Assembly: GCA_030694905.1 (NCBI GenBank)
Contig: JAUYTY010000061.1
Location: 1 to 43,153 of the forward strand
DNA from: Eubacteriales bacterium
GTDB lineage: Bacteria; Bacillota; Clostridia; Tissierellales; Dethiosulfatibacteraceae
DNA: 43,153 bases
Direction of reading: 5' to 3'
A program made the translations under genes and the position numbers. Of the stretch, positions 13,269-41,760 are shown in pieces. How positions within the stretch are numbered: position 1 is the first letter of the stretch; every line of letters begins with the position of its first letter. Under the pieces are notes generated by a model. The model did no database searches. It saw nothing but the letters and a program-made list of their open reading frames with translations, and had not been told where the DNA came from.

Positions 13269-13300
13269 AAAAAGAGGAGATCGTTGATCTTCTCTTTTTT
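13269..13300 (+). terminator. Intrinsic terminator of the nucleotidase gene
   Basis: The stem AAAAAGAGGAGATC (13269-13282) and its partner at 13286-13299 flank a 3-base loop and end in a T run. The next repeat copy begins at the following base. Confidence 0.88.
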
Positions 13301-13431
13301 ATCCGATGACTAACAGTGCTAAGACTCCCACTTCTATCAGTGGGAGATAAGCACTGTAGAGTCCCTGGATAACGGTTTCTAAGGTTCAGATGGCGTTTGA
13401 AACGCCAACTGAACCCAAGAACCCTGTTGAT
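13301..13431 (+). repeat. Structured dispersed repeat, copy A (full, 131 bp)
   Basis: This copy starts ATCCGATGACTAACAGTGCT and ends AAGAACCCTGTTGAT. It folds in two parts. The first is an outer stem CAGTGCT/AGCACTG enclosing an inner stem CTCCCACT/AGTGGGAG. A linker TAGAGTCCCTGGAT leads to the second part, a long stem GGTTCAG-a-TGGCGTTT with its perfect complement, framed by AAC/GTT. A same-length copy with few differences lies at 41630-41760, a collapsed one at 13459-13542, and a 33-bp fragment at 28208-28240. All four have the same orientation. There is no open reading frame. It could be a structured RNA or a non-autonomous transposable element with hairpin ends. Confidence 0.85.
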
Positions 13432-13458
13432 GATTGACAATACTGCGAAATTAGGTTT

Positions 13459-13542
13459 ATCCTATGACTAACAGTGCTAAGACTCCCACTTCTTAAGCAC
13501 TGTAGAGTCCCTGGATAACGGGTTCTAAAGAACCCTGTTGAT
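13459..13542 (+). repeat. Structured dispersed repeat, copy B (collapsed, 84 bp)
   Basis: This copy has the same 5' core (ATCCTATGACTAACAG) and 3' end (AAGAACCCTGTTGAT) as copy A, from which it is separated by 27 bases. Both variable hairpins are removed: the inner CTCCCACT stem loses its partner arm, and the long GGTTCAG/CTGAACC hairpin is gone. The framing stem is perfect here (GGGTTCT/AGAACCC), whereas copies A and C have GGTTTCT. Stem shortening with an intact core suggests that the core or the fold is what is kept. The B3/B4 gene's ribosome site follows 13 bases later. Confidence 0.82.
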
Positions 13543-26342: not shown

Positions 26343-28229
26343 ATGATTTACGGATTTTCTGGAAAAATTTTAGAGGTGGATCTGACCAAAAATAAAATAA
26401 GCGCCATAACGATATCAGAAGAAATGATGAGAAAGTACATGGGCGGGAAAGGCCTTATTGGCTATTTTATGCGGCAGGATGACCTAAAGTCTGTGGATCC
26501 GATGTCCGAGTCAAATGTGTTTTACTATATGACAGGTGTCATGTCTGGAATACCTAACGCAGGCACTTCAAGAATTGTAATGGGGAGCAAATCTCCCATT
26601 ACAAAGGGATTTGGCATGTCTGAATCCGGCGGCTTTGTTGCAGCTGAGCTAAAAAAAGCAGGCTGGGATGGGATCATTGTCAGAGGCAAGTCAGAAAAGC
26701 CGGTCTATCTATGGATCAAGAATGGGGAGGTTTCCATTAAGGACGCGAACCACCTTTGGGGAAAGGGAAACGGAGAGGTTCATGATAGAATCAGACAGGA
26801 ATTAGAGGATAAGAATATTCGCATATCCCAGATTGGTCCCGCAGGGGAAAATATGGTTCAATATGCCTGTGTCATGAATGATCTGAAACATGCTTGTGGC
26901 AGAAATGGATTGGGAGCTGTCATGGGTAGCAAGAATCTGAAGGCTATAGCTATCAAGGGTACCGTGGGAATAAACTTTAAAGATCGTGAAAAGATTTTAG
27001 AAATCAGCAAATGGTATTCTGATTACTTCAAGGAAAACCCACTATCAAATGGCTTGCATATGTACGGAACGGCATCGGTGGTAGAGGGTGCGAATCTGTC
27101 GGGGATACTCCCAACGAGAAATTTCAGAGATGGTTATTTTGACCAAGCTGAGAATCTGACCGGAAAAAGAATGGCTGAGACTATTTTAATCAGAAGAGAT
27201 GGCTGCTTTGCATGCCCAGTAAGATGCAAGAGAACTGTTGAAATCAAGAGAGAGGATTTGCAGGTCGATTCTAAATACGGCGGTCCTGAATATGAGACCA
27301 TTGGAGCCTTTGGATCTCTATGCGGTATAGGGAATCTGGAGATGATTGCTAAGGCCAATGAACGATGCAATGATCTTGGACTTGACACTATTTCAGCGGG
27401 CGTTTCCATCGCCTTTGCAATGGAGTGCTATGAGAGAAAAATAATTGATGATAAAACAACCTTTGGATTAGATCTAAAATTCGGCAATGAAGAGGCAGTA
27501 CTGCAGCTGGTGGAGGACATCGCCCATAAGAGAGGTCTGGGAGAATTGTTATCTAAAGGTGTAATGACAATGTCAGAAATATTCGGAGAGGAAACTAAGG
27601 ATTATGCCATGCATGTTAAGGGCCAGGAATTGCCTATGCATGATCCAAGAGGGAAGACAGGTGTAGGGCTCGCATATTCGCTCTCACCGACAGGAGCGGA
27701 CCATATGCAGGCGGCACATGATACAATGATGGCAGCTGAAGGTCCCGTTTTGGAATCAGGAAAAGTTTTGGGTCTGACAAAACCGGTAGATGTCTACGGT
27801 TATGGATTGGATAAGGCCATGTTTTATTCGATTCTTGAGAAATGGTGGAGCTTTTTAAACATGGTAGGGGTTTGTTTCTTCATACCTCAGCCCAGAGGAT
27901 CCTTTCCTATTGATAAGTTCCTGGATTTGCTGAACCTGGCGACTGGGTGGGATGTCAGTGTTGAAGAGGCAATGGAAATTGGCGAGAGAGGCATCAATAT
28001 TGCCAGAGTCATCAATTATGAAATGGGTGTCGATGAAAGTACAGAGGAGCTGCCTGAACGACTTTACCAACCATTGGAAAATGGCGCCAGCAAGGGAAGA
28101 TCTCTGGATAAGGAAGCATTTATCAATATGAAGAAAGCCTATTATGAATTGATGGGATGGGATGAATCTGGCAAGCCTGGAAAAGAAATCTTGAACAAAC
28201 TGGGATTATCCGATGAGCAACAGTGCTAA
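26343..28229 (+). CDS. aor: Aldehyde:ferredoxin oxidoreductase (tungsten-pterin type)
   Basis: The 628-residue protein is of the AOR family. The N-terminal beta domain begins IYGFSGKILEVDLTKNKIS and continues MGGKGLIGYFM, then ITKGFGMSESGGFVAAELKKAGWDGIIVRGK. The 4Fe-4S motif CFACPVRC lies near residue 290-297. A late KGQELPMHDPRGKTGVGLAYSLSPTGADHM segment matches the pterin-binding region. AOR oxidises aldehydes to acids with ferredoxin as acceptor, or reduces acids, using a tungsten bis-pterin. AAGGAGG precedes the ATG. The last codons (SDEQQC and stop) lie within a fragment of the dispersed repeat at 28208-28240, so the native C-terminus was probably replaced. The maturase-like radical SAM gene is at 10142. 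Confidence 0.93.
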   Translation: MIYGFSGKILEVDLTKNKISAITISEEMMRKYMGGKGLIGYFMRQDDLKSVDPMSESNVFYYMTGVMSGIPNAGTSRIVMGSKSPITKGFGMSESGGFVAAELKKAGWDGIIVRGKSEKPVYLWIKNGEVSIKDANHLWGKGNGEVHDRIRQELEDKNIRISQIGPAGENMVQYACVMNDLKHACGRNGLGAVMGSKNLKAIAIKGTVGINFKDREKILEISKWYSDYFKENPLSNGLHMYGTASVVEGANLSGILPTRNFRDGYFDQAENLTGKRMAETILIRRDGCFACPVRCKRTVEIKREDLQVDSKYGGPEYETIGAFGSLCGIGNLEMIAKANERCNDLGLDTISAGVSIAFAMECYERKIIDDKTTFGLDLKFGNEEAVLQLVEDIAHKRGLGELLSKGVMTMSEIFGEETKDYAMHVKGQELPMHDPRGKTGVGLAYSLSPTGADHMQAAHDTMMAAEGPVLESGKVLGLTKPVDVYGYGLDKAMFYSILEKWWSFLNMVGVCFFIPQPRGSFPIDKFLDLLNLATGWDVSVEEAMEIGERGINIARVINYEMGVDESTEELPERLYQPLENGASKGRSLDKEAFINMKKAYYELMGWDESGKPGKEILNKLGLSDEQQC

Positions 28230-28240
28230 GACTCCCACTT
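28208..28240 (+). repeat. Fragment D of the dispersed repeat, overlapping the aor stop codon
   Basis: Thirty-one of 33 bases match the first 33 bases of copy A; positions differ only where A has CT and this has GC. The match ends after CCCACTT, then unrelated sequence follows. The aor stop TAA lies within the conserved core (AACAGTGCTAAG). Confidence 0.8.
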
Positions 28241-28247
28241 ATCAACA

Positions 28248-41605: not shown

Positions 41606-41629
41606 GACGATCCCTTCTTATATTGATTT

Positions 41630-41760
41630 ATCCGATGACTAACAGTGCTAAGACTCCCACTTCTATCAATGGGAGATAAGCACTGTATAGTCCCTGGATA
41701 ACGGTTTCTAAGGTTCAGATGGCGTTTGAAACGCTACCTAAACCCAAGAACCCTGTTGAT
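41630..41760 (+). repeat. Structured dispersed repeat, copy C (full, 131 bp)
   Basis: It has the same length and boundaries as copy A, differing at five or six positions that fall mainly in stem arms. AGTGGGAG becomes AATGGGAG, and the long hairpin's right arm reads AAACGCTA-c-CTAAACC, giving one G-U pair and mismatches. The core blocks (ATCCGATGACTAACAG, AAGCACTGTA, AGTCCCTGGATAACGG, AAGAACCCTGTTGAT) are unchanged. It lies between ispA and the symporter gene, 25 bases upstream of the ispA start on the opposite strand. Confidence 0.85.

Follow-up and report, generated by a model that had tools for sequence, protein, structure and literature searches.

A short protein-free element with subterminal palindromes and precise insertion behind TTTAT-like sites in Clostridia

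The DNA analysed here, referred to as the window, is the whole 43,153-nt stretch of contig JAUYTY010000061.1 from a member of the Dethiosulfatibacteraceae (Eubacteriales bacterium, assembly GCA_030694905.1). It carries two 129-nt copies of a repeat (copies A and C, 96% identical), one 82-nt copy (copy B) and one left-end fragment, all of which lie where a preliminary description of the sequence had placed them (Table 1). That description defined a 131-bp unit; the repeat is real, but flank comparison, nested copies and empty sites set the element proper at 129 nt, directly behind a TTTAT pentamer. Copy B had likewise been reported to have lost its hairpins, whereas only the hairpin tips are missing and an 8-bp neck of hairpin 1 is retained. 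The 131-nt span folds about 9 standard deviations better than shuffled sequences, on both strands. An aldehyde ferredoxin oxidoreductase gene takes its stop codon from the left-end remnant (window 28205-28243), whose site in the sister species holds a nearly full copy (L035, about 2418).

Table 1. Copies of the element in the window and the parts of copy A.
Feature	Position	Strand	Basis or remark
Target pentamer TTTAT of copy A	13298..13302	+	At T-run of terminator-like hairpin; motif over 81 copies
Copy A, complete, CCGATGAC...GTTGAT, 129 nt	13303..13431	+	Ends from empty sites and nested copies
Hairpin 1 and outer stem (copy A)	13301..13370	+	Target TTTATCC can pair with GGATAA; loop has target-like TTCTAT
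GGATAAC, proposed guide common to both ends (copy A)	13367..13373	+	Covariation of N
Hairpin 2, right palindrome (copy A)	13371..13428	+	Folding, compensatory change
Right end GTTGAT, inferred right cleavage site (copy A)	13426..13431	+	TTTAT in most other genera
Copy B, 82 nt, both hairpin tips deleted	13461..13542	+	Target TTTAT 13456-13460
Left-end remnant	28210..28243	+	Target 28205-28209; longer orthologous copy in sister species (L035)
Copy C, complete, 129 nt	41632..41760	+	Target TTTAT 41627-41631

The element stands directly 3′ of a TTTAT-like pentamer. Among 81 copies from three species of the genus, positions -5 to -1 before the initial CCGATG were T, T, T, A and T in 83, 77, 86, 78 and 95 percent of cases, respectively, and the bases outside the pentamer were near-random. 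The right end reads TTGAT in the host genus and mostly TTTAT outside it. The same limits emerged from sites that hold a copy in one species but not in its sister species. In the cleanest case (L129), GGTTTGT-element-TAGAACC corresponds to an empty GGTTTGC-TAGAACC, a comparison that reveals neither duplication nor loss of target sequence. Because the right-end TTGAT also differs from the TTTGT or TTTAT target within the genus, target duplication is absent there. The element has inserted into itself as well: at L016 (CCCACTTCTAT-element-AAGTGGGAG), a copy has its hairpin-1 loop interrupted by another, and a second nested insertion (L139) retains the right half of the recipient copy. In genome G487, two copies interrupt comM, whose reading frame is regained at either site once the flanks are joined and a single TTTAT is retained. 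Insertion of the element is precise transposition. Several copies are also preceded by one or two extra 35-nt left ends (L004, L009, L014, L015, L016, L021 and L060), a pattern explained by insertion at the TTCTAT in the loop of hairpin 1, which resembles the target. At 129 nt, the element is too short to encode a transposase. With neither terminal inverted repeats (6/25 identities in register) nor a target duplication, it is not a classical MITE.

Both the structure of the repeat and its copy number are far beyond chance. A covariance model found about 98 sense copies, on both strands, in the host genome (2.81 Mb, 99% complete), while blastn gave 60 places there from 40 scored candidates. Copies at contig ends (C19, C160, C23, C20, C26, C6 and C212) indicate that the repeat probably breaks the assembly and is undercounted. 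The host's two congeners (G001 and G002) carry many copies each. A covariance search across Clostridia, as proposed in the preliminary description, did recover relatives: 10 of the 249 genomes in the order and 24 of the 391 genomes sampled from the class carry this two-hairpin build, the hairpin arms being different. The highest count was 94 matches, in the complete genome G570. A single two-hairpin unit, about 123-134 nt long, is conserved across the class. An Rfam search with the element returned no match, and collections of plasmids, phages and viral contigs also gave no match. A different repeat with the same hairpin apex was seen in G032 (L045, L050, L053 and L056), with at least 21 matches, mostly after TTTAT; it apparently ends in TTCAC, and no Y1 gene was found in that genome.

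Folding places both hairpins subterminally, near the two ends of the element. The core had been described as nearly invariant and the hairpins as variable in length. Across species it is the skeleton that is conserved; the hairpin arms vary in sequence, yet their pairing is kept. Between genera, 18 of 37 pairs were altered on both sides, a count equalled in none of 500 shuffles and more than twice that of any slid control, so that the stems do covary among homologues. The same cannot be said of the pseudoknot proposed between GACTC and GAGTC, where covariation was no greater than in shuffles; the AGTC of the linker instead pairs with another GACT (in GATGACTAAC) within a nested outer stem.

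Strong structure and covariation of this kind would also be expected of a domesticated structured RNA or UTR module, such as a regulator, terminator or mRNA stabiliser, whose copies are kept for their RNA function. Many copies do lie just after gene ends, and the bcr elements of Bacillus cereus are partly transcribed in UTRs (PMC3446304). On the top strand, moreover, G-T exceeded A-C between genera, by 41 to 10 (26 to 10 once two positions that are mostly G-T are left out), although the pair-selecting folding model counts G-U as pairs and favours them. Within the genus the corresponding counts were 30/32, 15/27 and 46/45, with no G-T excess, and individual copies are thus not visibly under strand-specific selection of the RNA type. 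Copies also occur on both strands, some lack their hairpin tips, sites are empty in a sister species, comM is interrupted by two copies and no Rfam family corresponds to the repeat. The structured-RNA interpretation, which the preliminary description had offered, consequently appears improbable. The excess between genera is as compatible with folded single-stranded DNA as with RNA, and it may reflect a top-strand constraint on source elements, which a strand-specific single-stranded DNA substrate would lead one to expect.

A further regularity concerns the motif GGATAAN, which is placed between the hairpins, 5′ of palindrome 2. Of 119 copies, 103 have at N, directly after GATAA, the complement of the base that precedes the right-end pentamer (G with C, C with G or T with A). 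By majority, 17 of 19 genomes follow this rule, and the two exceptional genomes may reflect parsing errors of the search pattern. None of 20000 genome-level permutations was as good. At the left boundary, the same GGATAA pairs with TTTATCC, a conserved pairing without covariation of the kind seen for N. In the IS200/IS605 family, guides located 5′ of each palindrome select the cleavage sites by base complementarity (PMC8266576). GGATAAN covaries as a guide and its cleavage site would, and a guide role is proposed for it from these alignments, with a single guide perhaps serving both ends; IS200/IS605 elements, in contrast, have one guide per end.

If the chemistry is that of IS200/IS605, a Y1 (HuH) transposase should be available to the element. 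No Y1_Tnp domain was found in a domain search of the host genome, whose assembly of 221 contigs could have a gap hiding such a gene, and no Y1 gene was found in carriers G603 and G410. Y1 genes were present in each of the nine further carriers searched within the order and in 19 of 21 in the class. They also occurred in 29 of 41 relatives, and since they are common there too, their co-occurrence with the element does not discriminate. No autonomous element sharing both ends turned up, such as the TnpA/TnpB-encoding one that the preliminary description had suggested looking for. Of 29 loci scanned around transposase genes, 27 were without a copy and two carried copies. A RAYT-like gene (Y1_Tnp in Pfam) directly adjoins copies in G487 and G450, the latter gene matching NCBIfam REP_Tyr_transpos below its cut-off. 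In G487 (L285, G487:C1:2165000-2171000), this gene is fused in frame to a comM remainder, with both copies interrupting comM further on; the comM beside it is already broken and could simply be a tolerant site. The RAYT-type gene beside the copies is only a lead to the enzyme, and the mover is presumably a Y1 protein, for which there are candidates only.

The missing Y1 genes of the host, G603 and G410 would be accounted for by a different chemistry that also leaves no duplication, such as that of a serine or tyrosine recombinase or a Y2 rolling-circle enzyme. The replication-strand data are compatible with such an alternative. Copies on the same contig of the host genome share orientation in 33 of 44 pairs (p 0.003), but orientation along the leading strand (25/36 in the host genome, 48/86 in G570 and 5/16 in G487) is inconsistent and gives no general replication-strand bias; a lagging-strand bias, considered on the strength of the clustering and the 25/36 in the host, was rejected on the counts from the other two genomes. 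Against a non-Y1 enzyme, the pentamer target, subterminal palindromes and guide pairing match Y1 features, and no recombinase adjoining copies was noticed on unsystematic inspection. Such a chemistry is therefore unlikely. The preferred explanation, which we consider probable, is that the repeat is a non-autonomous, palindrome-ended and protein-free transposable element of about 129 nt that is moved by Y1 (HuH) chemistry. A non-autonomous transposon with IS200/IS605-like palindromic ends had been among the initial suggestions, and it gains support from precise insertion, nesting, compensatory palindromes, guide-like pairing and an IS605-like left hairpin.

That left hairpin provides a link to known elements. 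The IS200/IS605 elements of the order (G248:C24, G030:C10 and G004:C100) encode tnpA and tnpB, and their left end appears to follow TTTAA (TTTAA/CC..). Their left-end hairpins, for example AGTGCGTAAGTCTCCCA..GTGGGAGAT..AAGCACT after TTTAA, resemble hairpin 1 after TTTAT and share a CTCCCA..TGGGAG core (profile E 1.3e-4). Their right ends differ, and they do not occur in the host genome. Similar hairpin cores (CTCCCATCTTCTA) were also seen in degenerate IS605-like left ends on two clostridial plasmids (L210, CP026602.1, and L211, NZ_CP051755.1). The element cannot be classed as an IS200/IS605 insertion sequence, having no coding capacity and no Y1 TnpA in the host genome. The similarity of the left ends could conceivably mark it as a TnpB-dependent relic, consisting of the right end and omega RNA of an IS605/IS1341 element. 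The unit, however, possesses both ends and is mobilised as one piece, the right ends of the order's IS605 elements are unlike hairpin 2, and no TnpB gene (no PF07282 match) was found in the host genome. A relic of this kind is thus highly improbable. The omega RNA class, raised in the preliminary description, is likewise not favoured, with no tnpB upstream and none in the host genome.

Among short elements, the PATEs of Haloquadratum (PMC3119063) are similar in that they lack terminal inverted repeats, carry near-terminal palindromes, generate no target duplication and are too short for a transposase. PATE palindromes are related to IS605-type elements, while here the left hairpin is similar and the right end is not. 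The published definition of PATEs applies to the element except that palindrome kinship with IS605 is evident in part only. PATEs are haloarchaeal and share no known sequence with the element, which is one two-hairpin unit found class-wide in Clostridia. REP/BIME sequences with their RAYT (TnpA-REP; PMC6006769, PMC8266576) are also high-copy intergenic palindromes, and a RAYT-like gene lies beside copies of the element in two carrier genomes, although such gene association is rare. The REP/BIME class was rejected on the absence from the alignments of the conserved GT[AG]G tetranucleotide at the hairpin foot; the element, by contrast, forms a complete unit of 129 nt whose ends are fixed and whose target is TTTAT. 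The bcr1 repeat of the Bacillus cereus group resembles the element by description only. It is a MITE-like element of about 150 bp, present in 11-130 copies and with a conserved fold, whose mobility has been tied to a TTTAT motif (bcr1, bcr2 and bcr3; PMC6542083, PMC3446304), and it has plasmid copies, whereas the element has no plasmid match.

Building on the mechanism described for IS200/IS605 and REP sequences (PMC8266576, PMC6006769), a Y1 (HuH) transposase of the IS200/IS605-RAYT superfamily would act in trans on the element. Its substrate would be the top strand folded as single-stranded DNA, with the enzyme binding both palindromes. Cleavage would occur on the left after the TTTAT target and on the right after TTTAT or TTGAT. 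The GGATAAN between the palindromes would serve as the guide, pairing with the left target TTTATCC and, by its N, with the nucleotide preceding the right pentamer. Once excised, the single strand could then be joined behind another TTTAT. The loop of hairpin 1 would itself provide a TTTAT-like site, and such a site explains both the nested copies and the tandem 35-nt left ends. A more specific version, in which a single GGATAAN guide in these Clostridia-wide minimal elements determines the target on the left as well as the cut on the right, and a domesticated, stand-alone RAYT mobilises them in trans, can be put forward only tentatively and is rather doubtful as a whole.

The repeat thus represents a defined and abundant Clostridia-wide family of about 130 nt, for which the ends, the target and empty sites are known and the base-pairing rule is testable with oligonucleotides. 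Its recognition also corrects the natural misreading of such repeats as structured RNAs.
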